From contig JACNKP010000072.1 in NCBI GenBank assembly GCA_014381985.1, positions 1-38,454 on the forward strand: a DNA stretch of 38,454 nt, written 5' to 3'. Of the stretch, positions 18,741-33,052 are shown piece after piece. Position 1 is the first letter of the stretch; each line of letters begins with the position of its first letter. Made by a program: the position numbers and the translations under genes. The stretch comes from SAR92 clade bacterium (GTDB taxonomy: Bacteria > Pseudomonadota > Gammaproteobacteria > Pseudomonadales > Porticoccaceae). Under the pieces are notes generated by a model. That model saw nothing but the letters and a program-made list of their open reading frames with translations. It did not search any database and was not told the origin of the DNA.

Positions 18741-18808
18741 GCGGAAACTGTTAAATACTCGAACGCTAAACTCAGAAAGATAAATTTTTTAATTAGTTGG
18801 ACATATTT

Positions 18809-20590
18809 ATGCCCTCGAAAAAGACTGCACTAGGGATAACCGAAGTTGTATTGCGTGATGCCCATCAATCGTTGTTTGCCACGCGTATGCGAATCGATGA
18901 CATGTTACCCATCGCTGGAAAGCTTGATCAAATTGGTTATTGGTCAATGGAATCTTGGGGTGGAGCAACTTTTGACTCTTGCATCCGATTTTTAGGTGAG
19001 GATCCTTGGGATCGTATTCGAGAAATTAAAAAGGCCATGCCCAATACTCCTCAGCAGATGTTATTCCGGGGTCAGAATATTCTGGGTTACAGACATTATG
19101 CAGACGATGTCGTGATGAAATTTGTTGAGCGTGCAGCTGTTAATGGGATTGACGTGTTTCGGGTGTTTGATGCAATGAACGATATGCGCAATTTAGAAAC
19201 AGCCTTACGCGCGGTAAAACAGGTTGGCAAGCACGCTCAGGGGACAATTTCCTACACGGTAAGCCCTGTGCATACCCTTGAGTTATGGATTGATCAGGCT
19301 CGACAGATAGAGGATGCAGGAGCCGATTCAATTTGTATTAAAGATATGGCCGGATTGCTAACGCCTTATGTTGGCTTTGATTTGGTCACTCGCTTAAAGA
19401 AAGCGGTAGCCATTCCGATACAACTTCATGCTCATGCCACCACGGGCTTATCAACGAGTACCATTCTGAAATGTGTCGAGGCTGGCATTGATAATATTGA
19501 TAGCGCTATTTCGTCAATGTCGATGACCTACGGCCACTCTGCTACTGAGTCTGTAGTGTCGATTTTTAAAGACACTGATCGAGATACAGGTCTTAATATT
19601 GAAAAGCTGGAGGAGATAGCCGCATACTTTAGGCCAGTGCGTAAAAAGTACGCAGAGTTTGAAGGCTCTCTAAGAGGCGTTGATTCGCGCATTCTTGTCG
19701 CCCAGGTTCCTGGAGGAATGTTAACCAACATGGAGGGGCAGTTGCGAGAGCAAGGCGCCGAGGACAAGTTGGATGAAGTGCTTGCCGAAATACCTAAGGT
19801 ACGTGAAGATTTAGGTTTTATACCGCTCGTTACTCCTACGTCCCAAATAGTAGGCACTCAGGCGGTGCTTAACGTGCTAACTGGTGAGAGGTATAAGACG
19901 ATCACTAAAGAGACTGCGGGGGTTTTGCGTGGCGAATATGGTGCTGCGCCCGCGCCGGTGAATGCTGAGCTACAATTACGAGTTCTTGATGAGGGGGAGC
20001 AGGCGATTACCTGCCGCCCTGCCGACAATATTGAGCCCGAGTTAGATAGCTTAAGAGCCGAAGTGACAGGCCTTGCTCAACAGAATGACTTTATGCTGAC
20101 CTCGGGTGAGGGTGAAATCGATGACGTGCTGACTTATGCACTTTTTCCCCAAGTAGGGTTAAAGTTTTTACAGCATAGAAATGATCCGAGCATGTTTGAG
20201 CCCATACCTACAGGAAGACCGGCCGCTAAAGTGAACGAGAAAGGTGAAGAGGCGTATACCGTTGAGGTGGAGGGGAAATCCTACCATGTTACTGTTGCCT
20301 CCGGTGGCGATGTCTCGTCGATCAAACAGTTGGGTGCCCAGTCATCCGCAGTCGTGCAGGCAGAGTCTGCTAGTAATGCTGCTCCAGTTAATGCTCCATT
20401 AGCGGGCACAGTTGTCAAGGTGCTAGTGCAGCCAGGCCAAGCTGTCGTCGAAGGTGAGTCGATTATTATCTTGGAAGCCATGAAAATGGAAACCTCTATC
20501 AGTGCGCCTAATGCAGGCACTATTGTCGCTGTAAAAGTGCAAAGTGGTGATAGCTGCGCTGTGGGTGACCTCCTCGTGACACTGGCTTAA
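18809..20590 (+). CDS. oadA: Oxaloacetate decarboxylase alpha subunit (biotin carrier)
   Basis: This cytoplasmic subunit (593 residues from the ATG) transfers the carboxyl group of oxaloacetate to biotin. The N-terminal carboxyltransferase TIM barrel shows [14 protein letters not shown] (metal-site Asp), the KDMAGLL strand with the catalytic Lys, and HAHATTG (metal-site histidines). A conserved carboxylase domain follows. A linker rich in Ala, Ser and Val (about 510-530) leads to the biotinyl domain with LEAMKMET; the biotinylated Lys559 is about 35 residues from the end, as expected. The frame also opens at a TTG at 18797. The ATG lacks a strong ribosome site, so the exact start is uncertain. 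The start of oadB follows after 11 bp. Confidence 0.93.
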
Positions 20591-20601
20591 AGGGGCGCGC
20601 T

Positions 20602-21774
20602 ATGGAAAACATGTATAGCTTGTGGGCGAGTTCAGGCCTTGCGCAGATTCAACTGGGCCAATTAGTAATGATGGCTGTTGGCTTATCATTATTGTTTCTA
20701 GCCATTCGGAAGGGCTTTGAACCGCTTCTTTTGGTTCCCATTGGATTTGGTACTATTTTAGCTAATATCCCAGGGGCTGGGTTCGATGCCGCTCCAGTCT
20801 ATGATGCTCTTGGTCATATGCAGAGCCCAGGTGGACTACTTTATTATATTTATCATGCGGGTATTGAAACAGGCCTATTCCCTCTGGTTATTTTTATGGG
20901 GGTGGGTGCCATGACCGACTTTGGGCCTTTGCTGGCTAACCCCAAAACCTTATTGCTTGGCGCGGCTGCTCAGGTAGGTATTTTTACGACTGTGCTTGGG
21001 GCTGTTGGCTTGAGTCATTTTGGTATTTTAGACTTTAGCATTCGCGATGCTGCCTCAATCGGCATAATAGGTGGCGCAGATGGGCCGACGGCTATTTTCG
21101 TCACCAGTAAGCTATCACCAGATTTATTGGGTGCCATCGCTGTGGCGGCTTATTCTTATATGGCCTTGGTGCCGATTATTCAGCCGCCAATAATGCGGGC
21201 TCTAACGACACCAGCGGAACGTAAAATCGAAATGGTGCAGTTAAGGCCGGTCAGCAAGTCTGAGCGAATCGTATTTCCCTTAACATTGCTGGTGCTCGTG
21301 GCCTTGTTGTTGCCAGATGCTGCACCGCTGTTGGGTATGTTTTGTTTTGGCAATCTCATGCGTGAATGTGGTGTGGTTAACCGTCTTAGTGATACCACTC
21401 AAAACGCCTTAATAAACATCGTAACAATATTTTTAGGTTTAGGTGTCGGCTCAAAAATGAGTGCTGAAAAATTCCTTAATGCCGAAACCATGGGTATTTT
21501 AGCCTTGGGTGCCGTTGCGTTTTGCATTGGTACAGCGTCAGGAGTGTTGATGGCTAAGCTCATGAACGTCGTATCCACCCACAAGGTTAATCCACTGATA
21601 GGTGCTGCAGGCGTATCAGCCGTGCCGATGGCAGCGCGGGTGGCAAATAAGGTGGGTCTTGAGTCCAATCCGCAGAACTTCCTATTAATGCATGCCATGG
21701 GTCCCAATGTTGCGGGTGTTATTGGTTCGGCGGTAGCCGCCGGTGTAATGATAAACTTAGTTGGAAACATGTAG
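20602..21774 (+). CDS. oadB: Oxaloacetate decarboxylase beta subunit (sodium-ion pump)
   Basis: OadB is the membrane subunit that decarboxylates carboxybiotin and exports sodium ions. The 390-residue protein has about nine to eleven hydrophobic segments. The central [14 protein letters not shown] block, with Asp160, corresponds to the sodium-translocating Asp203 of Klebsiella OadB. The second half carries [13 protein letters not shown] and [19 protein letters not shown], including the conserved C-terminal polar motif, and ends in [19 protein letters not shown]. Together with OadG and OadA it would couple oxaloacetate decarboxylation to the sodium gradient, in line with a marine bacterium. The related methylmalonyl-CoA and glutaconyl-CoA pumps share this beta subunit, but the alpha subunit here points to oxaloacetate. 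Confidence 0.93.
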
Positions 21775-22308: not shown

Positions 22309-25300
22309 ATGCACTCGCAATCAATAGTTACCAATCAGGGTTGGTTCCAAGCTTTTTTCCAAGCCAAACATTTTAGTGCAATTCTTGCACTCTCATTTTC
22401 ATTGATCTTGTCGGCCTGCGGTGGTGGTGGCAACAGTGTTACAGAAAATGACTTGGTTGATCCAGGTTCCGATGGCGTTACACCGACGCTGACAAGCGTA
22501 TCTATCCTTCAGCAGCAAGAAAAGAATTCGAGCCCAGATGGTGTGGCCAAACTAGGACAGTCTATTAAGGTTGATTTCACCGCATCTGAAGCATTAATGA
22601 CCCCAGAGGTTACTATTAATGGCGTAGCAGCTAGCCTTGAAGGAAAAATTGGGGACTGGTCCGCTTCTAGGGCAATGACTGCCGACGATGTTGATGGTTA
22701 TGTCACATTTAATATCTCATTCGAAGACACTAGTGGTGAAGTCGGCGTTGATGTTTCTGAAACGACTGACGGTAGCCGTGTGCAGTATTGTGCAGAGGGT
22801 TGTGTTGCCCCAGTCGAAGATCCACTGGTTGGTGATTGGATGCTTGACGGAGCCGGTGCGGCAGGTGTTGGGCCAACCCCCGGAAGCATGGAGTGGTGGT
22901 CAGCCGATGCAGCAGCTGTTGAAGCTCGCGCATGCTGGTTTGATGACGTATTCTCCTTCACTAAAGCGGGATCTTTCTCTAATGTCTTGGGTGAAGAAAC
23001 TTGGCTGGAGACGTGGCAGGGTGCTGAAGCTGAAGGCTGTGGAGCGCCGGTAGCGCCACATGATGGTAGCGCAGATGCAACCTGGGCATGGGACGAAGCA
23101 GCAGGCACACTAACGATCAACGGTAAGGGCGCTCACCTAGGACTTGCTAAGGCCGTCAACGGCCAGGAATTATCTGATCCAGGTGCCGCTCCAGACTCTA
23201 TTACTTATCAAATTTTAACGCTCACTGCAGACGGCATGAACTTAACCGTCACTGTTGAGACAGGTGCAGGTGTTTGGTGGACATTTAACTTGGCTAAAAA
23301 GCCAGTGTCACCTTTTGTGGGTGCCTGGAAGCTTGACGGTGCAGGAGCTGCCGGTGTTGGTCCAGTAGCTGGCAGTATGGAATGGTGGTCTGCTGATGAA
23401 GCGGCTGTTACTGCGCGCGCATGTTGGTTTGATGATAGCTTTGTATTCGGCACTGACGGTTCTTTCTCTAACCAATTGGGTTCTGAAACTTGGTTGGAAA
23501 CATGGCAGGGTGCTGATGCTGAAGGTTGCGGAGTTCCAGTCGCACCCCATGATGGCAGTGCTGTAGCTACTTTTAGTCATGATGAGGCGGCAGGAACACT
23601 AACAATTAACGGTAAGGGCGCTCATTTAGGTCTTGCTAAGGCGGTCAATGGTCAAGAGTTATCTGATCCAGGTGCTACGCCAGACTCTATTACTTACCAA
23701 ATTTTAACACTCACTGCAGATGGCATGAACTTAACAGTCACTGTTGAGACAGGTGCTGGTGTTTGGTGGACATTTAACTTGGCAAAAGTACCTCCGTCGC
23801 CATTGGCAGGTAATTGGCGATTAGACGGTGCTGGTTCAGCAGGCGTTGGCCCAGTCGCTGGTAGCATGGAATGGTGGTCTGCTGATGACGCGGCTGTTGC
23901 GGCTCGTGCTTGTTGGTTCGATGATCGGTTTACTTTTGGTGACGACGGATCCTTTACTAATGTAATGGGTTCTGAGACATGGCTTGAAACATGGCAGGGT
24001 GCTGAAGCTGAAAGCTGTGGAACACCAGTAGCACCGCATAACGGTAGTGCTGCAGCGACATTTAGTCACGATCAGGCTGCTGGGACCCTAACGATTAACG
24101 GTAAGGGTGCTCATTTAGGTCTAGCTAAAGCGGTCAATGGTCAGGAATTATCTGATCCAGGCGCGGCACCAGATTCTATTACTTATCAAATTTTGACTCT
24201 CACTGCCGACGGCATGAACTTAACAGTCACTGTTGAGACAGGCGCAGGTGTTTGGTGGACGTTCAATCTAGTTAAAGTTCCTGTTTCAGCGCTTGCTGGA
24301 AGCTGGTCTTTAGATGGAGCCGGCTCAGCGGGTGTTGGTCCGACTGAGGGTAGCATGGAGTGGTGGTCAGCCGATGCGGCAGCTGTTGAAGCACGCGCGT
24401 GTTGGTTTGATGATAGCTTTGTATTTGGTGATGACGGGTCATTCTCTAATGTAATGGGTTCTGAGACGTGGCTAGAAACGTGGCAGGGTGCTGAAGCGGA
24501 GAGCTGTGGTACACCAGTTGCGCCTCATGATGGAAGCGCAGTTGCTACCTATAGCTATGATGAAGCAGCGGGTACTATTACAATCAACGGGAAAGGCGCT
24601 CACTTAGGTCTACCTAAGGCTGTTAATGGTCAGGAATTATCTGATCCAGGTGCTGCTCCAGATTCAATTACTTATAAAGTCCTTACCGCTACTTCTGATG
24701 GTAAATACGTCACAGTCACGCTTGAAACGGGTGCTGGGGTATGGTGGACTTTTAATCTTGCTAAAAACGATTCTGCCGCTCCAGTAGATCCAGTAGATCC
24801 AGTTGATCCAGTAGATCCAGTTGATCCAGTAGATCCAGTAGATCCAGTAGATCCAGTGACGGTAGAACTCGTTACAAATGGTGGATTCCAGGATGGCTCA
24901 ACCGGTTGGACTGGTGCTGATACTGCGATTGCATCCTACTATGCCGTAGACGTAGCAACTGCAGGTGACCCGTGGGCAGTGAATTTATCTCAGGTCATGA
25001 CTTTAGTCGCTGGTACTGACTACGAAGTATCCTTTAAAGCACGAGCCTCTGTGGCTCGTACAATGATCGCAGGTCTTGGATTAAATGCCGGCCCATGGTC
25101 AGCTGCCACAGAAACAGTCGATCTAACTACTGATTGGCAAACGTTTACTTATACCATTAATACCACTGACGTTAGCAATGGTGCATTTGGCGATGATAAC
25201 AGCCGTGTGCTATTTGATATGGGAGCCAATGTCGGCGCCGTTCATATCGATGATGTTAGTGTTAAGTTAACCGGTGGTGATGGAGCTGAGCTTCTCACTA

Positions 25301-27282
25301 ATGGTGACTTCCAGGCGGGTTCAGCTAGTTGGGCTAATGCTGATACAGCAATAGCTTCTTATTATGACGTAAATGTAGAAACGGCTGGTGATGCGTACGC
25401 AGTAAACTTAAGCCAGACGATGACGTTGGTGCCAGATACAGCTTATACAGTATCATTTAAAGCGAAGGCTTCAGTCGCACGTACAATGCTTGCAGGCCTT
25501 GGTTTGTACCACGATCCTTGGACTAATGTCGCAGAATCTGTATCTCTGACCACAGAATGGCAAACATTTACGCTGAACCAAACCACGACAGGTTTTGGGG
25601 ATGACAACAGCCGAGTCTTGTTTGATATGGGTGCTGAAGTTGGTGCCGTATCGATTGATGATGTAAGTGTGACGACTGAGTCGGTAGATCCAGTAGATCC
25701 AGTAGATCCAGTAGATCCAGAAGCCGGTGATTTAGGTACTGGTGATAATAATGTTCTTAACGCTGGTGAGGTGATTAACTTTAACTCAACTACCGTTGGT
25801 ATTTATGCGCTGGACGACTTTGGTAACAATGTGAGCACATTGGTTGCTGATCCTACAGATGCAACTAATACGGTTTTGTCAATTATCAAAGGAAATGAAA
25901 CCTGGGCGGGTACTACGATTGCACGAGGTAGCGTGATTTATCCTCTTACAGCAACCGAAACCATCATTACGGCACGTGTCTGGTCTCCAGAAGCAGGTAT
26001 CACGGTCAGATTGAAGCTTGAAGAATCAGGTGACAATACTCACACGGTTGAAACGGACGCGGTGACAACTAAAGCGCAGGAGTGGGAAACCTTAACCTTT
26101 GACTTCAGTAACCCAGCAACTAATGATGGGAACCCTACCAATCCGCTTAATGTCGAGTATGTGTTCGATACTCTGTCGGTCTTTATGAACTTTGGTTCAG
26201 CTGGGTCCTCTGAAACCTACTACTTCGATGATGTAACATTTGTTGGCGCGGCGCCAGTTGTGGCTCCTACAGTGACGGCAGCAGATTTGGTCGGGGACTG
26301 GAAGCTTGCTCCTGTTGCTGGAGCACTTGCTGTGGGTGAATCTGCGGATAACCTAGGCTGGTGGTCTAGTGATGAAGCAACTGCGACGACACGGGCATGT
26401 TTGTTCGATGATGTCTACACTTTTGGTTCAGATGGTTCGTTCTCTCAGGCTATGGGCACTGAAACTTGGGTCGAGGCTTGGCAGGGAACTGATCCTGAAG
26501 GCTGTGCTGCACCGGTTGCTCCTCATGATGGTAGCTACACAGACGGTACCTATAGCGTTGCTGATTCCAAAGTCACCGTTAATGGTTTAGGTGCTCACCT
26601 TGGTTTACCTAAGGTAACGGGTAGTGGTGAAATTTCAGATACTGCTAATGCTGTGTCGACTATTACCTATAATGTTACTGAGTTATCAGCTGATGGTAAC
26701 AACATGACTGTTCAGATTCAGTATAACGGCGCTAACACTTGGCAGTTTAAGTTCGCTAAGTCAGCGCCGCCTGCTCCTGCACCGATTGCAACTGCAGCAG
26801 ATTTGGTCGGGGACTGGAAGCTTGCTCCTGTTGCTGGAGCACTTGCTGTGGGTGAATCTGCGGATAACCTAGGCTGGTGGTCTAGTGATGAAGCAACTGC
26901 GACGACACGGGCATGTTTGTTCGATGATGTCTACACTTTTGGTTCAGATGGTTCGTTCTCTCAGGCTATGGGCACTGAAACTTGGGTCGAGGCTTGGCAG
27001 GGAACTGATCCTGAAGGCTGTGCTGCACCGGTTGCTCCTCATGATGGTAGCTACACAGACGGTACCTATAGCGTTGCTGATTCCAAAGTCACCGTTAATG
27101 GTTTAGGTGCTCACCTTGGTTTACCTAAGGTAACGGGTAGTGGTGAAATTTCAGATACTGCTAATGCTGTGTCGACTATTACCTATAATGTTACTGAGTT
27201 ATCAGCTGATGGTAACAACATGACTGTTCAGATTCAGTATAACGGCGCTAACACTTGGCAGTTTAAGTTCGTTAAAGCCTAA
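22309..27282 (+). CDS. Giant multidomain surface lipoprotein with six Trp/Cys-rich repeats and CBM4/9-like modules
   Basis: The 1657-residue protein begins with a lipoprotein signal (SLILSAC, Cys37, then Gly residues, so outer-membrane sorting is likely). Domains in order are: a bacterial Ig-like domain (about 58-160, ending in TTDGSRV); four tandem repeats of exactly 163 residues (172-823); eight PVD units (825-848); two CBM4/9-like carbohydrate-binding modules (about 853-990 and 993-1122, each starting LxTNGxFQ and ending HIDDVSV or SIDDVSV); a short VDP tract; a third beta-sandwich module (about 1141-1318, ending YYFDDVTFVG); and two further repeats (about 1325-1483 and 1497-1656). Every repeat has SxxWW or GWW early, RAC(W/L)FDD, ETWxExWQG, GC(G/A)xPVAPHDG or SCGxPVAPHxG, GAHLGL, and a final W-x-F. 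No catalytic motif was recognised. A binding or scaffold role for extracellular polysaccharide is inferred from the CBM-like modules and the GH3 gene nearby. Confidence 0.85.
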   Translation: MHSQSIVTNQGWFQAFFQAKHFSAILALSFSLILSACGGGGNSVTENDLVDPGSDGVTPTLTSVSILQQQEKNSSPDGVAKLGQSIKVDFTASEALMTPEVTINGVAASLEGKIGDWSASRAMTADDVDGYVTFNISFEDTSGEVGVDVSETTDGSRVQYCAEGCVAPVEDPLVGDWMLDGAGAAGVGPTPGSMEWWSADAAAVEARACWFDDVFSFTKAGSFSNVLGEETWLETWQGAEAEGCGAPVAPHDGSADATWAWDEAAGTLTINGKGAHLGLAKAVNGQELSDPGAAPDSITYQILTLTADGMNLTVTVETGAGVWWTFNLAKKPVSPFVGAWKLDGAGAAGVGPVAGSMEWWSADEAAVTARACWFDDSFVFGTDGSFSNQLGSETWLETWQGADAEGCGVPVAPHDGSAVATFSHDEAAGTLTINGKGAHLGLAKAVNGQELSDPGATPDSITYQILTLTADGMNLTVTVETGAGVWWTFNLAKVPPSPLAGNWRLDGAGSAGVGPVAGSMEWWSADDAAVAARACWFDDRFTFGDDGSFTNVMGSETWLETWQGAEAESCGTPVAPHNGSAAATFSHDQAAGTLTINGKGAHLGLAKAVNGQELSDPGAAPDSITYQILTLTADGMNLTVTVETGAGVWWTFNLVKVPVSALAGSWSLDGAGSAGVGPTEGSMEWWSADAAAVEARACWFDDSFVFGDDGSFSNVMGSETWLETWQGAEAESCGTPVAPHDGSAVATYSYDEAAGTITINGKGAHLGLPKAVNGQELSDPGAAPDSITYKVLTATSDGKYVTVTLETGAGVWWTFNLAKNDSAAPVDPVDPVDPVDPVDPVDPVDPVDPVTVELVTNGGFQDGSTGWTGADTAIASYYAVDVATAGDPWAVNLSQVMTLVAGTDYEVSFKARASVARTMIAGLGLNAGPWSAATETVDLTTDWQTFTYTINTTDVSNGAFGDDNSRVLFDMGANVGAVHIDDVSVKLTGGDGAELLTNGDFQAGSASWANADTAIASYYDVNVETAGDAYAVNLSQTMTLVPDTAYTVSFKAKASVARTMLAGLGLYHDPWTNVAESVSLTTEWQTFTLNQTTTGFGDDNSRVLFDMGAEVGAVSIDDVSVTTESVDPVDPVDPVDPEAGDLGTGDNNVLNAGEVINFNSTTVGIYALDDFGNNVSTLVADPTDATNTVLSIIKGNETWAGTTIARGSVIYPLTATETIITARVWSPEAGITVRLKLEESGDNTHTVETDAVTTKAQEWETLTFDFSNPATNDGNPTNPLNVEYVFDTLSVFMNFGSAGSSETYYFDDVTFVGAAPVVAPTVTAADLVGDWKLAPVAGALAVGESADNLGWWSSDEATATTRACLFDDVYTFGSDGSFSQAMGTETWVEAWQGTDPEGCAAPVAPHDGSYTDGTYSVADSKVTVNGLGAHLGLPKVTGSGEISDTANAVSTITYNVTELSADGNNMTVQIQYNGANTWQFKFAKSAPPAPAPIATAADLVGDWKLAPVAGALAVGESADNLGWWSSDEATATTRACLFDDVYTFGSDGSFSQAMGTETWVEAWQGTDPEGCAAPVAPHDGSYTDGTYSVADSKVTVNGLGAHLGLPKVTGSGEISDTANAVSTITYNVTELSADGNNMTVQIQYNGANTWQFKFVKA
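22822..24777 (+). repeat. Four in-frame tandem repeats of 489 bp
   Basis: Corresponding Trp codons lie at 22837, 23326, 23815 and 24304, and the closing TGGTGG pairs at 23275, 23764, 24253 and 24742. Each step is exactly 489 bp, so no insertion or deletion has occurred among these copies. The units differ by scattered substitutions. The second halves of copies 1-3 are nearly identical, while copy 4 is divergent there. Confidence 0.93.
24781..24852 (+). repeat. Minisatellite encoding eight Pro-Val-Asp units
   Basis: Eight 9-bp units (CCAGTAGAT, with GTT replacing GTA in units 3 and 5) form a stiff acidic linker between the four-repeat block and the CBM-like modules. A second, shorter tract of four GTAGATCCA units lies at 25684-25719. 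Such tracts can change length by slippage without breaking the frame. Confidence 0.9.
24865..25671 (+). repeat. Duplicated CBM4/9-like module
   Basis: Two related units (about 24865-25266 and 25285-25671) encode beta-sandwich modules with shared landmarks: TNG(G/D)FQ, ADTAIASYY, AVNLSQ, YxVSFKA(R/K)ASVARTM, AGLGL, and DDNSRVLFDMGA then IDDVSV. The start LxTNGxFQ and end xIDDVSV are typical of PF02018-type carbohydrate-binding modules. The first copy has a small insertion near ITTDVSNG. Confidence 0.8.
26278..27271 (+). repeat. Perfect 478-bp direct repeat (516-bp period)
   Basis: Bases 26278-26755 recur without a mismatch at 26794-27271. The difference is confined to the edges: GCTAAG after the first copy and GTTAAAGCC before the stop in the second. 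The linker between them is a short Pro/Ala-rich stretch. The perfect identity, including third positions, indicates a recent duplication or ongoing gene conversion. Confidence 0.95.
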
Positions 27283-28045: not shown

Positions 28046-28191
28046 CGTTAACGCACCATAATATAGAGGGAGTTTATCAGTATATTCATACCACGGATAA
28101 TTAAACGTCTAATATAGATACGTCGACCACAATTGGTCTATGATACCTTTACAGGCTAAAAACCCACCGGCTTAAAAGAGTGTCCATTATA

Positions 28192-29349
28192 ATGGAAGAG
28201 AGTAATTTTCATCCCTTAGCAGCAAAATTTTATCAAGACTCTAACGCCCAGTTTTTGTTTTTACAATTAATAGGATGGTTTGGTCTGTCGTTGGTGAGTT
28301 TCTTTAGTTTGACTCTCTGGTATGACCAGCAGGCCCAGCTCACCTATGTTGGCCATACTTTAGTGCAATCAGCGTTGGGCATGGCCGTGTCTTGGCCGTT
28401 AAGGTCTTTAGCGCATTATTTGTGGGATATGAAACTCTGGCTAAGGTTTGTTTTGACTTCAGTTGGTGTATTTGTTTGTTCTGGGATGTGGGCGGTATTA
28501 CGACTCTCAACATTTATGTATATGACGGGAGAGCAAGGGTTATGGCCTGATTTTGGTGGTTGGATGTTTGGCTCGATCTTTATTTTTGTCTCGTGGGCAG
28601 CTTTATACCACGGTATTAAATATTATCAATTACTGCAGTCTGAGCATGCAAGCCTGCTTCGTTTTGCAGCGGATAATAAGGAAGAGCAGTTGAAGCGCTC
28701 TAGAGCAGAGATTTTTGCTCACGAGGCGCAACTTAAAATGCTGCGATATCAGCTTAACCCACATTTTTTATTCAATACTTTAAATGCTATTTCTTCACTG
28801 GTGCGAGACAAGGAATCGGTCAAAGCTAATGCTATGATCGTTCAGTTAAGTAGCTTTTTAAGGTACTCTTTGGACAATGACCCCATTCGGAGGGTTACCT
28901 TAATGGACGAGATGGAGGCGCTTAAGCTTTATCTAGACATTGAGAAAACACGTTTTGGCGACCGACTCAAAGTATGTTTTGACGTTGACCCGAAAGCCGA
29001 GGCGATCAGAATCCCAAGTCTTATTTTGCAACCACTGGCTGAGAATGCAATTAAATATGCCGTTGCCCCTATGGAAGATGGCGGGACTATAACGATCAAA
29101 GCAAGGCGCAGTGGAGACTATGTGGTTATCGAATTGGATGATACTGGCCCTGGAATGCCAGCCTTTAAGTATGATAGTTCCAGCCCTGGTATAGGATTGC
29201 GTAATACTATTGATCGATTACATGGGTTTTATGGTGACAGTTATAGTTTTAAGATTAAAGATAAGTCTTCTAATGGAATCAGTGTGTGCATGAAATTACC
29301 TCTTGAAAAGAAAGAGGTAATCTTGGAAGGCACGACTCCTAATAGTTAA
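28192..29349 (+). CDS. LytS/AlgZ-type membrane sensor histidine kinase
   Basis: The predicted 385-residue kinase has four transmembrane segments in its first 150 residues, a short coiled coil (about 155-180), then a His_kinase (PF06580) dimerisation region with LRYQLNPHFLFNTLNAI. His191 is the probable phosphoacceptor. The ATPase domain shows PLAENAIKYAV (N box), LDDTGPGMP (G1) and GIGLRNT (G2). There is no large external sensor domain, so the signal is probably sensed within the membrane, as proposed for AlgZ/FimS. A GTG at 28180 in the same frame would add four residues. The cognate regulator follows after 24 bp. Confidence 0.9.
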   Translation: MEESNFHPLAAKFYQDSNAQFLFLQLIGWFGLSLVSFFSLTLWYDQQAQLTYVGHTLVQSALGMAVSWPLRSLAHYLWDMKLWLRFVLTSVGVFVCSGMWAVLRLSTFMYMTGEQGLWPDFGGWMFGSIFIFVSWAALYHGIKYYQLLQSEHASLLRFAADNKEEQLKRSRAEIFAHEAQLKMLRYQLNPHFLFNTLNAISSLVRDKESVKANAMIVQLSSFLRYSLDNDPIRRVTLMDEMEALKLYLDIEKTRFGDRLKVCFDVDPKAEAIRIPSLILQPLAENAIKYAVAPMEDGGTITIKARRSGDYVVIELDDTGPGMPAFKYDSSSPGIGLRNTIDRLHGFYGDSYSFKIKDKSSNGISVCMKLPLEKKEVILEGTTPNS

Positions 29350-29373
29350 ATAATATGAAAAGGTGTACATAAA

Positions 29374-30183
29374 ATGTCTAAGCTGAAGACCATTATTGTT
29401 GATGACGAGCCTTTGGCCCTTAACTTCTTGCGTTCTCTGTTGGCGGAGTTCCCTGATGTCGATGTGGTTGCAGAATGCCGTAATGGTCGCGAGGCTGTTT
29501 TAGCGGCCTCTCAAATGAGTCCGGAACTGATGTTTTTAGATATTCAGATGCCTGGGATGAATGGATTTGAAGTCATTAAAGCGTTGCAGTCAGACGTTAT
29601 GCCGATGGTTATTTTTGTTACTGCCTTTGATCAGTATGCTCTAGACGCTTTTGACCTGCACGCAGTTGATTATATTCTAAAGCCGCTAGACCCTGATAGG
29701 GTTAGCCGAGCGGTAAATCGGGCTATCGATCGATTGCGTGACAATGGGGCGGGGAGCTATAAAGCGCCACTGATTGGTGCTATTGGAGCCATAGCAGAGA
29801 GGGTTTCGGCGGCCACGTCAGTCGAGTCAGAGGTCCATGAGCCTGCATCAGATAGTATTAAAGGGAAGCTTCTCGTGCGTGATTCAGGTGTCGTAAAGGT
29901 TATACCGTTTGACGATATTGACTGGGTAGATGCTGCTGGTGATTACATGTGTGTTCACGCCTCAGGTGAGACCCATGTCATAAGAATTACGCTGGGCGAG
30001 CTAATGGAAAAGTTGGACGACAAACTATTTATTCGAATACATAGATCCACCATCGTTAATGTTCAGCGGGTAGTCAGTATTACGCCACTGCCCAAGGGTG
30101 GTAGCTTGCTCGAATTATCGGCAGGTGAGACGCTTAAAGTGAGCCGTAACTATAGAGAATCGATTCGAAATCTATTTAGATGA
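29374..30183 (+). CDS. LytTR-family response regulator (AlgR/LytR-like)
   Basis: A 269-residue regulator. The receiver domain (1-120) carries Asp10/Asp11, phosphoacceptor Asp56 in FLDIQMPGMNG, Thr in FVTAFDQYALDAFD and Lys in ILKPLD. A variable linker (about 128-165) leads to a LytTR DNA-binding domain (about 168-269) with WVDAAGDYMCVHA, FIRIHRSTIVNV and LKVSRNYRESI. It forms an operon with the kinase upstream. In Pseudomonas algZ-algR sits by hemC and argH; here it lies beside a GH3 gene, so its regulon may differ. It could act on the downstream GH3 promoter, though no binding site is proven. Confidence 0.92.
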   Translation: MSKLKTIIVDDEPLALNFLRSLLAEFPDVDVVAECRNGREAVLAASQMSPELMFLDIQMPGMNGFEVIKALQSDVMPMVIFVTAFDQYALDAFDLHAVDYILKPLDPDRVSRAVNRAIDRLRDNGAGSYKAPLIGAIGAIAERVSAATSVESEVHEPASDSIKGKLLVRDSGVVKVIPFDDIDWVDAAGDYMCVHASGETHVIRITLGELMEKLDDKLFIRIHRSTIVNVQRVVSITPLPKGGSLLELSAGETLKVSRNYRESIRNLFR

Positions 30184-30538: not shown

Positions 30539-33052
30539 ATGCCCGACCAGAGCCGCTTTTTGAGTATCCCTCTCCCTAATATATCAACCAAAAGATGTTT
30601 AGCTATCGTGCTAGTGCTTTTAGCTTGCTGTATTTCACAAATGGCGTGGGCAAAATCAGCAGTTAATGAGGATGTTGAGATTCGGGTGGCGAGCATTTTG
30701 AAAGACATGACGTTAGAGCAGAAAGTTGGTCAGATGGTGCAGGGTGAAATTAAGGAAGTTACGCCTGACGATGTCGCTAGATATTATTTGGGCTCTATTC
30801 TTAATGGCGGCGGTTCTTTCCCTAACGGACAGAAAAACTCCACGGTTAGTGATTGGTTGGACCTTTCTGATCGATATTACTTGGCGTCGTTGGACAAATC
30901 ACAGGGTGGAGCAGCTATTCCGGTAGTGTGGGGAACTGATGCTGTTCATGGGCACAACAATGTTATCGGCGCGACACTGTTCCCCCATAATATTGGTCTG
31001 GGAGCGGCTAATGATCCTAATTTAATGAGAAAGATTGGTGAGATTACCGCCCGGGAGGTAGCTGTCACTGGAATTGATTGGGTTTTTGCCCCGACTGTCG
31101 CAGTGGTTAAAGACAGCCGTTGGGGGAGAGCCTATGAGGGATACAGTAGTGAGGCACCAATCATCAAAGCCTATGCGGGAGAAATTGTCACTGGACTTCA
31201 GGGAGAGCCAGGGGACTTACGAACAAATGAGCAGCGAGTGATTGCGACGGCCAAACATTTTATTGGAGATGGCGGAACCTATAGAGGTATTGATCAAGGA
31301 GATACCAGAGTCGATTTAGAACAATTACTGAATGATCATGGGCAGGGTTATCTTACCGCCTTGGATGCTGGCGTACAGACTGTCATGGCATCATTTAATA
31401 GTTGGAATGGAATAAAAATTCATGGGCACAAATTTCTTTTAACCGACATCTTAAAAGATAAATTGGAGTTTGATGGATTTGTTATTAGTGATTGGAATGG
31501 CATTGGTCAGGTAGATGGTTGTGTCAATGAGAGTTGTGCTCTGGCTATTAATGCCGGGGTTGATATGGTCATGGTGCCCAAAAAATGGAAGGCCTTTCTG
31601 CAAAATACCTTAGCGCAGGTGAAAGCAGGCGAGATTTCTATAGATCGCATTGATGATGCGGTTACTCGAATATTAAGAGTAAAGATACGTGCAGGTCTTT
31701 TTGAAAAAGGTCTACCATCATCCCGAGAAATTGCTGGACAAGAGTCCCTAATTGGAGCGGCAGAACATCGCGCAGTTGCCCGTGAGGCCGTGCGAAAGTC
31801 ATTGGTATTACTTAAAAATAAGAACCAAGTTTTACCCCTGAAAGCGAAACAGCACGTGGTTGTTACCGGTGACGGTGCGGATGATATTGGAAAGCAAAAT
31901 GGAGGCTGGACGATAACCTGGCAAGGTACTGAGAACAAAAACAGTGATTTTCCTGGTGCAACTAGCATATACGCCGGTTTACGTGATGCGGTGGGTGATA
32001 TTGGCGGTTCTACTGAGCTAAGCGTCGATGGAACTTGGGTTAAAAAACCCGATGTTGCTGTGGTAGTGTTTGGTGAAGAGCCCTATGCGGAAGGTCAGGG
32101 CGACGTACATTCCTTGATTTACCGTGACGGACTAACAGCTGACCTTGAACTATTGCGAAAATTTCAGGCTAAAAACATTCCTGTCGTGGCGGTATTTTTA
32201 ACGGGCCGTCCGCTTTGGATGAATGCTGAAATTAATAGCGCTGACGCCTTTGTTATTGCTTGGTTACCTGGATCAGAGGGCGGAGGGGTAGCAGACGTAT
32301 TAGTGGGGGATCGCCAGAATAAGCCTCGTTACGATTTCACCGGACGCCTGTCTTTTAATTGGCCTAATCGAGAGATTAATCCAGCTGATGTGTCACTGGC
32401 GGTCGTTGACAATTTAGTATCCTTAGGGCATGGCATGAGCTATGGATCCATAGCGTTGATAAGCGGCAGTCTTAACGAAAAGCCTTCATCTGAGGGTTCG
32501 GTGAAAGAAAATATTATTTTTAGCGGTAGTAGCCGTGATCCGTGGAAGACTTATGTGGGCGACGTTAACGATTGGCGGAAGCAAGTGACAGGCATGCAAA
32601 CGTCAACGGCTGGTGGTGCCTTAACCGTCATGACGGTTGATGGAGCCGTGCAAGAAGATTCTAGAGCGCTTACTTGGACTGGCGGGGAAGAAAGTCAGTT
32701 TTACTGGCAGAGCGAAGTGCCCGCAGATCTGACGTTACTGGCCGACAGTGAGGGTGCCCTTATGATGGAGTTTAAAATTGATAAACATCCACTTGGGCGG
32801 GTGGAGCAAAGAATGGATTGCGGATATCCCTGTTCTGGGTCGCTGGATATGACTGCATTTTTTAGGTCTTTGCCCAAAGGTCAGTGGACCCGAAGAGGCA
32901 TCAGTCTTAGCTGCTTTCGTAAACTTGGGGTAAACCTTGCAAAGGTAACAACACCGCTCGTCCTGATTAGTACCGAGCCCTTTGCGGTAACCTTTAGAGA
33001 CGCAAGAGTCATAGCAAATGCGTCTGATGATTCGTTGATCAGCTGTAGTTAG
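30539..33052 (+). CDS. Secreted GH3 beta-glucosidase / exo-beta-glucanase
   Basis: An 837-residue glycoside hydrolase family 3 enzyme. Residues 1-38 form a signal peptide (hydrophobic core LAIVLVLLACC, cleavage after AWA38). The TIM-barrel domain (about 45-400) shows WGTDAVHGHNN, the TAKHFIGDGG substrate-binding block and the nucleophile Asp318 in GFVISDWNG. The second domain (about 430-640) carries FGEEPYAEG with probable acid/base Glu513. A C-terminal beta-rich region (about 660-837) resembles the ExoP-type galactose-binding-like domain. The closest family pattern is the exo-1,3/1,4-beta-glucanase of marine gammaproteobacteria. It probably releases glucose from beta-glucan oligosaccharides in the periplasm or at the cell surface, and sits beside the carbohydrate-binding lipoprotein and a two-component system. 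Confidence 0.92.
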   Translation: MPDQSRFLSIPLPNISTKRCLAIVLVLLACCISQMAWAKSAVNEDVEIRVASILKDMTLEQKVGQMVQGEIKEVTPDDVARYYLGSILNGGGSFPNGQKNSTVSDWLDLSDRYYLASLDKSQGGAAIPVVWGTDAVHGHNNVIGATLFPHNIGLGAANDPNLMRKIGEITAREVAVTGIDWVFAPTVAVVKDSRWGRAYEGYSSEAPIIKAYAGEIVTGLQGEPGDLRTNEQRVIATAKHFIGDGGTYRGIDQGDTRVDLEQLLNDHGQGYLTALDAGVQTVMASFNSWNGIKIHGHKFLLTDILKDKLEFDGFVISDWNGIGQVDGCVNESCALAINAGVDMVMVPKKWKAFLQNTLAQVKAGEISIDRIDDAVTRILRVKIRAGLFEKGLPSSREIAGQESLIGAAEHRAVAREAVRKSLVLLKNKNQVLPLKAKQHVVVTGDGADDIGKQNGGWTITWQGTENKNSDFPGATSIYAGLRDAVGDIGGSTELSVDGTWVKKPDVAVVVFGEEPYAEGQGDVHSLIYRDGLTADLELLRKFQAKNIPVVAVFLTGRPLWMNAEINSADAFVIAWLPGSEGGGVADVLVGDRQNKPRYDFTGRLSFNWPNREINPADVSLAVVDNLVSLGHGMSYGSIALISGSLNEKPSSEGSVKENIIFSGSSRDPWKTYVGDVNDWRKQVTGMQTSTAGGALTVMTVDGAVQEDSRALTWTGGEESQFYWQSEVPADLTLLADSEGALMMEFKIDKHPLGRVEQRMDCGYPCSGSLDMTAFFRSLPKGQWTRRGISLSCFRKLGVNLAKVTTPLVLISTEPFAVTFRDARVIANASDDSLISCS

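Follow-up and report, generated by a model that had tools for sequence, protein, structure and literature searches.

Laminarin is an algal storage sugar and one of the chief foods of bacteria during algal blooms. Bacteroidota systems for its use are defined by the SusCD pair; SAR92-type Gammaproteobacteria make do without this pair, and we found little on how they accomplish the capture step. The question is raised by a 38,454-nucleotide stretch of a SAR92 clade genome (GCA_014381985.1, contig JACNKP010000072.1, positions 1 to 38,454; hereafter the window), in which one lipoprotein carries six copies of a domain that lacks a name. What does this domain bind, and what might a cell gain from carrying six of them? 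The original prediction, made from the DNA letters, had described a Trp- and Cys-rich repeat and had guessed at a carbohydrate-binding or scaffold role.

The lipoprotein gene (22309-27282, forward strand; Table 1) encodes a product of 1657 amino acids. The motif RAC(W/L)FDD occurs in this product six times, at residues 207, 370, 533, 696, 1362, and 1534, as does GAHLGL, and a six-frame search of the 2.5-Mb genome with one copy returned exactly six matches, all within this reading frame, at E values of 1.4e-41 to 1.7e-105, which exclude a chance origin of the six copies. The motif counts and the genome search thus bear out the claim of six copies of one domain on one lipoprotein, and the aligned copies do share the features attributed to them: the two Cys, the conserved Trp, GAHLGL, and a W-x-F at the end. 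Four copies (R1 to R4) lie in tandem, followed by approximately 1500 bases that hold two CBM_4_9 modules and an unnamed module, and then by R5 and R6; the copies are spaced at 489 bases among R1 to R4 versus 516 for R5 and R6. Relative to R5, amino acid identity is 45-49% for R1 to R4 and 99% for R6, and at the DNA level R1 to R4 are 73-79% identical to one another and 55-57% identical to R5 and R6, with R5 and R6 sharing 99.0%.

Table 1. Features of the lipoprotein gene and of the genes downstream of it, in window coordinates (L numbers denote related loci)
Feature	Position	Strand	Basis
Whole gene, predicted six-repeat surface lipoprotein	22309..27282	+	ORF; same order of same-sized genes in L007 and L009, with a GH3 similar to the window's
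Signal peptide, lipobox LSA-C (Cys37), then Gly	22309..22419	+	Read off the sequence
N-terminal spacer	22480..22791	+	No Pfam best stretch at E 0.1
Domain copy R1	22813..23301	+	Motifs, six-frame search, alignment
Domain copy R2	23302..23790	+	Motifs, six-frame search, alignment
Domain copy R3	23791..24279	+	Motifs, six-frame search, alignment
Domain copy R4	24280..24768	+	Motifs, six-frame search, alignment
Pro-Val-Asp linker	24781..24861	+	Read off the sequence
CBM_4_9 module 1	24862..25275	+	Pfam PF02018, E 8.8e-22 for the whole protein, two stretches; ends set by eye
CBM_4_9 module 2	25285..25683	+	Second of the two PF02018 stretches; ends set by eye
Unnamed module, 173 residues	25729..26247	+	No Pfam match above cut-off
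Domain copy R5 (modeled copy)	26275..26763	+	Motifs, six-frame search, alignment, AlphaFold2 model
Domain copy R6	26791..27279	+	Alignment; 99.0% DNA identity to R5
Histidine kinase and LytTR response regulator	28180..30183	+	Pfam; same-sized genes at this place in L007, L008, and L009
GH3 glycoside hydrolase with Exop_C domain	30539..33052	+	Pfam PF00933, PF01915, PF18559; in L007, L008, and L009 a relative lies close to the host gene

Around the repeats, the protein has the features of a modular lipoprotein that would be sorted to the outer membrane. Its N-terminal spacer is probably Ig-like, judging from sequence, and the unnamed module behind the CBM_4_9 pair may be CBM-like. This module has strong relatives in L007, L008, L009, L013, and L035 and a weak one in L025, and every strong relative in the loci compared resides in a protein that also bears the repeat domain.

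The repeat itself received no name from Pfam or NCBIfam, or from PHROGs, which was queried with R1 and R5 only. Matches to DUF4906, FKBP-like_N, expansin EXLX1, TruB-C_2, and PFKA were dismissed as chance, because they covered short pieces and varied between copies; TruB-C_2 passes the Pfam cut-off for one host protein (L016; 32.2 versus 21 bits), with no single stretch significant. We saw no kinship between the repeat and CBM_4_9, CBM_6, or CBM_35. Since the domain is absent from the family libraries we searched, repeat-bearing genes are likely annotated as hypothetical.

Relatives of the repeat occur in two phyla. The genome collection contains 180 stretches that encode them, and we kept the best 80, corresponding to 79 loci, many of which end at contig ends. 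By their titles, the best 80 of the 180 belong mostly to Flavobacteriaceae, other Flavobacteriales, Crocinitomicaceae, Saprospiraceae, and Porticoccaceae/SAR92, and the nearest among them, at 90% identity, comes from a Porticoccaceae metagenome-assembled genome (MAG; L007). A Bacteroidetes setting beside glycoside hydrolase and CBM modules, mentioned in the original prediction, holds for many relatives, but the window itself is gammaproteobacterial. Some of the relatives' genome titles seem to name lakes. Three MAGs (L013, L018, and L032) are labeled Euryarchaeota, Marinimicrobia, and Rhodobacteraceae, and the gene settings of these contigs, which are probably misbinned, look gammaproteobacterial or flavobacterial.

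A profile search of 94 genomes detected the domain in 31, all of them among the 50 genomes of the same genus (the source genome included), leaving 19 genomes of the genus without it and none with it among 44 genomes that represent other genera within the family and order. The family to which Kordia algicida belongs (L016, titled as Flavobacteriaceae) was sampled with 199 genomes, of which 45 matched, 30 strongly (E <1e-18) and 15 weakly. Viral contigs were scanned from motif seeds, and not one of the 122 motif matches was confirmed; plasmid records held no match to R5. Host proteins carry from one to six copies, and several copies are common.

How conserved the residues look depends in part on how the relatives were collected. 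The loci were found by motifs containing RAC-FDD or ETW-E-W, and because these motifs served as search seeds, their conservation across the 79 motif-found loci is partly selected. To reduce this selection, we drew the conservation set from 40 regions picked from profile matches, representing 28 of the 30 genomes with strong matches in the Flavobacteriaceae sample and 12 of the 31 same-genus genomes, although the profile had itself been built from motif-found copies. Seven of the 86 aligned stretches had 135 or fewer filled columns and were dropped (some may be pieces of the SGBP-B-like domain described below), which left 79 full-length copies.

Both C42 and C77 (profile numbering) are present in all 79 of these copies, as are W9, W65, and W155; W29 and W69 are each present in 77, and position 30 holds W in 58 copies, F in 20, and Y in one. 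Cysteines come in a small number of sets: C42 and C77 in 54 copies, the same two with C32 and C36 in 24 (L111, L114, and others), and the same two with C142 in a single copy, such that the second pair at positions 32 and 36 is always present or absent as a unit. Cysteines that appear and vanish in twos suggest disulfides, and the pattern fits the earlier proposal of one disulfide per domain, which would join C42 to C77. The conserved Trp residues may contact sugar. The Bacteroides fluxus protein discussed below also has cysteines near positions 32 and 36 in its alignment.

To what, then, is the repeat related? We modeled R5 with AlphaFold2 from an alignment of 47 copies, and the resulting structure (pLDDT 96.2, pTM 0.90) has three short helices and eleven strands. 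When this model was compared to the PDB with Foldseek, ranks 1-4 of 823 were all chains of B. fluxus SGBP-B (BfSGBP-B), at E values of 7e-7 to 1.6e-6, TM scores of 0.65-0.68 by query length, and approximately 17% identity; the top matches were 7kv7 (with laminaritriose, E 7.1e-7), 7kv5, and 7kv6 (with mixed-linkage glucotriose). The next rank after the SGBP-B chains stood at E 1.7e-3, and many lipocalin-like barrels followed below it. The structure prediction of a single repeat, which had been suggested as a check, thus yielded one clear PDB match. The repeat is predicted to share the fold of 7kv5 and 7kv7, and a TM score of 0.68 at 17% identity marks a relative that is not near. Calling the domain unnamed remains correct with respect to Pfam, NCBIfam, and PHROGs, but a homologous domain with known function and structure does exist.

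The repeat profile had no match among PDB sequences, and another direct sequence search of the PDB returned nothing useful, so the link between the repeat and BfSGBP-B rests on the fold and on an intermediate family. This family consists of separate SGBP-B-like proteins, encoded in 20 of the 79 best loci (21 when the L044 host protein so labeled is included) and directly after SusD in 17 of those 20, whose C-terminal domain is similar to the repeat. On one side, two of these neighbors matched 7kv5, which is deposited as a PKD domain protein, in phmmer searches (L080, E 1.6e-10; L084, E 6.4e-10). On the other side, a profile of the SGBP-B-like domain (11 sequences) aligned to the repeat in hhalign with a probability of 98.3 and an E value of 2e-14 over 138 columns. 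W9, W29/W30, and W155 are common to the repeat and the SGBP-B-like family, and C42, C77, TW-E-WQG, and APHDG are peculiar to the repeat branch among the sequences aligned. These comparisons indirectly indicate, by way of the intermediate family, that the repeat is homologous to the glucan-binding domain of SGBP-B.

We also examined the genes that surround the relatives. Neighbors were labeled by phmmer (E up to 1e-6) against one representative per class, the representatives having been identified by Pfam, except that GH149 was identified by a full-length match to the beta-1,3-oligosaccharide phosphorylase 6hq6. Among the 79 best loci, SusC and SusD were each found in 46, GH16-like genes in 42, GH3-like genes in 30, and GH149-like genes in 13, and 25 contained a regulator of a class whose representative matched Y_Y_Y and LuxR-type families but no kinase. 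As raw counts, 55 loci held one or more of SusD, GH16, GH3, and GH149, and 24 held none. The host gene lies directly after SusD in 28 of the 79 and adjoins a GH16 or GH3 gene in 26. One common order in Flavobacteriaceae is regulator, SusC, SusD, host gene, GH16, and GH3; another is host gene, two unknown genes, GH16, and GH149. In L016, L033, L034, L036, L044, L049, L057, L064, L069, L072, L075, and L081, the host gene is followed by two conserved genes, whose products have approximately 1060 and 478 residues. Representatives of the two (the one from L036 falls short of its relatives in length) matched nothing in Pfam at E 0.001 and nothing in the PDB, and the products could possibly be unrecognized glucan enzymes. 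The gammaproteobacterial locus L062 encodes a TonB-dependent receptor directly upstream of the host gene, with a GH149-like gene nearby.

In several proteins the repeat is physically joined to other modules. Three genomes of the window's own genus encode a GH16 catalytic domain and the repeat in one open reading frame (L096, L097, and L098), L035 joins the repeat to a GH5-type Cellulase match and CBM_6 modules, and CBM6/CBM35 partner modules occur in host proteins. By these sequence arrangements the repeat would count as a CBM in the sense of a discrete, presumably noncatalytic module attached to carbohydrate-active enzymes. CBM48 is an alpha-glucan family, and it was matched at E 0.01 or better by 13 of the 47 proteins in the scan, which took in 44 hosts and three SGBP-B-like neighbors. 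L020 and similar Crocinitomicaceae hosts have a single domain, CBM48-like-looking repeats, and a C-terminal sorting tail and are encoded beside GH3 and GH16 genes, which puts an alpha-glucan-type module in a beta-glucan setting.

The predicted fold, the intermediate family, the gene context, and the GH16 fusions all support the original guess of carbohydrate binding, with beta-glucans and laminarin as the suggested ligands. We consider it likely that the repeat is a Cys-paired relative of the SGBP-B domain, a barrel that binds beta-1,3-glucan and above all laminarin, and that the six-copy surface lipoprotein serves multivalent capture. There is, however, a modest chance that the domain binds some other glycan (alpha-glucan, mixed-linkage glucan, or cell-wall glucan, for instance) and that it occurs in laminarin loci to some extent by coincidence. 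The CBM48-like modules, the CBM6/CBM35 partners, the GH5-type host, and the 24 loci devoid of the four recognized classes are all consistent with another ligand, and BfSGBP-B itself is reported to bind mixed-linkage glucan as well as laminarins, and yeast beta-glucan weakly (PMC7157763). Nevertheless, the neighbors that could be recognized are mainly SusCD, GH16, GH3, and GH149, and it is GH16 that shares a protein with the repeat in three genomes.

It would surprise us considerably more if the domain were a scaffold or spacer that docks proteins or extends the lipoprotein and leaves sugar binding to CBM_4_9. Multiple copies per protein, up to six, and the CBM_4_9 modules within the same protein are what such a spacer might lead one to expect, yet a sugar-binding protein is the top fold match, some hosts have a single copy, others are fused to GH16, and several aromatics are near-invariant across distant copies, which would be needless in a plain spacer; the scaffold role suggested at the outset gained no positive evidence. 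We give hardly any credence to a lipocalin-like domain that holds a small hydrophobic ligand inside its barrel. A weak similarity to Lipocalin_4 (PF13648) does appear in six of 47 copies at E up to 1 (best E 0.0056) and in two of 47 longer proteins (best E 0.00043), and further down the Foldseek ranking many entries are lipocalins or proteins that bind fatty acids (E 2e-3 or worse, with TM for the most part 0.3-0.45). These fits are far poorer than those to SGBP-B (E ~1e-6, TM up to 0.68), 41 of the 47 copies, R5 among them, had no Lipocalin_4 match at E 1, and most relatives lie in a glucan-breakdown context.

If the repeat is indeed a beta-1,3-glucan-binding barrel, the lipoprotein would be held in the outer membrane as a flexible chain of six such barrels and two CBM_4_9 modules. 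As in BfSGBP-B, a few consecutive beta-1,3-glucan units would be bound by each copy, and the six together would make many weak simultaneous contacts, raising the apparent affinity and keeping laminarin near the cell. GH16 and GH17 laminarinases could then cut the held glucan, a TonB-dependent transporter would import the products, and GH3 and GH149 would finish the oligosaccharides.

The source genome contains candidates for several of these steps. Matches to GH16 (two), GH17 (three), and GH149 (one) all lie on other contigs, and within the window only the GH3 lies near the lipoprotein gene; this GH3 is a probable partner enzyme. The histidine kinase and response regulator genes possibly regulate the lipoprotein gene. 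The order of same-sized genes around the host gene, together with a similar GH3, is kept in the SAR92-labeled L009, and the downstream order is kept in the SAR92-labeled L008. Upstream of the lipoprotein gene, and separated from it by one small open reading frame, are oxaloacetate decarboxylase alpha and beta genes (18797-21774), and same-sized genes occupy this place in L007, L009, L010, L011, and L061.

SusD (PF07980 and PF14322) had no match in the source genome or in 48 of the 49 other genomes of the genus. The one exception among the 50 is G004, in which both families match a single 361-residue frame on contig C43 that may be a contaminating contig or a rare transfer. Within the genus, GH149 occurred in 21 of the 31 domain-bearing genomes versus six of the 19 others (p 0.02), GH17 in 20 of 31 versus six of 19 (p 0.04), and GH16 in 28 of 31 versus 15 of 19 (p 0.40), all p values ignoring kinship. 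Among the 30 genomes that are at least 90% complete, the corresponding p values were 0.23, 0.23, and 0.25, none of them significant. We set this co-occurrence aside as too weak to serve as support.

The history of the copies is only partly legible. In a quick-method tree of 85 copies with SH-aLRT support and unknown root, for which the window copies entered include R1, R2, R4, and R5, the first three fall inside a gammaproteobacterial clade of 15 rows (support 99). Its sister group comprises 21 Bacteroidota copies (88 for the two groups jointly), and R5 is placed elsewhere, with copies that include the one from L008 (82). The gammaproteobacterial label needs five changes on this tree and the starred branches force only one, which leaves a Bacteroidota source of the gammaproteobacterial copies as one possible reading. 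R1, R2, R3, and R4 each find their best match in their positional counterpart in L061 and L007 (for R4 in L007, over 408 bases only). R5 and R6 are each approximately 85% identical to R5 of L007, and the two copies of L007 itself are 96-98% alike in two aligning pieces (280 bases). Given that R5 and R6 are 99% alike and yet differ from R5 of L007 by approximately 15%, a recent event at the C-terminal end, either duplication or gene conversion, would account for them; tentatively, their likeness may reflect gene conversion, repeated duplication, or in part an assembly effect.

A broader proposal, for which we judge the chances to be slightly below even, is that the repeat represents an undescribed CBM family with one or two disulfides, widespread in the laminarin loci of two phyla, and that lipoprotein arrays of it replace SusD/SGBP-B capture in SusD-less SAR92-like gammaproteobacteria. 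Assigning a ligand and a fold to the domain would make laminarin use readable from more genomes and metaproteomes, and the repeat array offers a ready test of multivalent capture without SusD. North Sea Gammaproteobacteria are described as having loci that lack SusCD and contain other TonB-dependent transporters instead, and six of the 22 SAR92 species were found to have laminarin clusters (PMC8371827). A lipoprotein of the repeat type could fill the capturing role in such loci.

Among known systems, the closest is BfSGBP-B (7kv5, 7kv6, and 7kv7), a surface glucan-binding protein of a beta-1,3-glucan utilization locus, with which the repeat shares a predicted fold, a glucan setting, and, via the intermediate family, a pattern of W, VGP, WW, (Y/F)DD, F, G, Y, and W. 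Like BfSGBP-B, the host is encoded after SusD in 28 of the 79 loci, although the source genome itself has no SusD match. BfSGBP-B has one such region behind a PKD domain, whereas repeat proteins have one to six copies, and since the window lipoprotein gave no Pfam match to PKD at E 0.1, we file the repeat as a branch of the domain superfamily and not as an SGBP-B protein.

The SGBP-B-like PKD proteins of Bacteroidota glucan loci belong to the same superfamily and share a locus with the repeat in the 20 cases counted above; the 11 of their sequences that were aligned, unlike the repeat, do not conserve the C42-C77 pair. The repeat is a separate branch from the SGBP-B-like genes that accompany it. 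A 2024 paper describes BfSGBP-B-like domains in Maribacter GH16_3 enzymes and proposes laminarin binding by homology (PMC11345257), and by that description these domains would fall within the same superfamily as well. Lipocalin_4 and other lipocalin-like barrels share the general barrel architecture and a weak profile similarity, but their structural fit is poor, and CBM_4_9, CBM_6, and CBM_35 occur in repeat-bearing proteins as separate Pfam families on separate stretches. In the portions of the literature our search covered, we did not meet the Cys-paired repeat described as a family. What is known is thus the SGBP-B type of glucan-binding domain, and what is new is its Cys-paired, array-forming branch.
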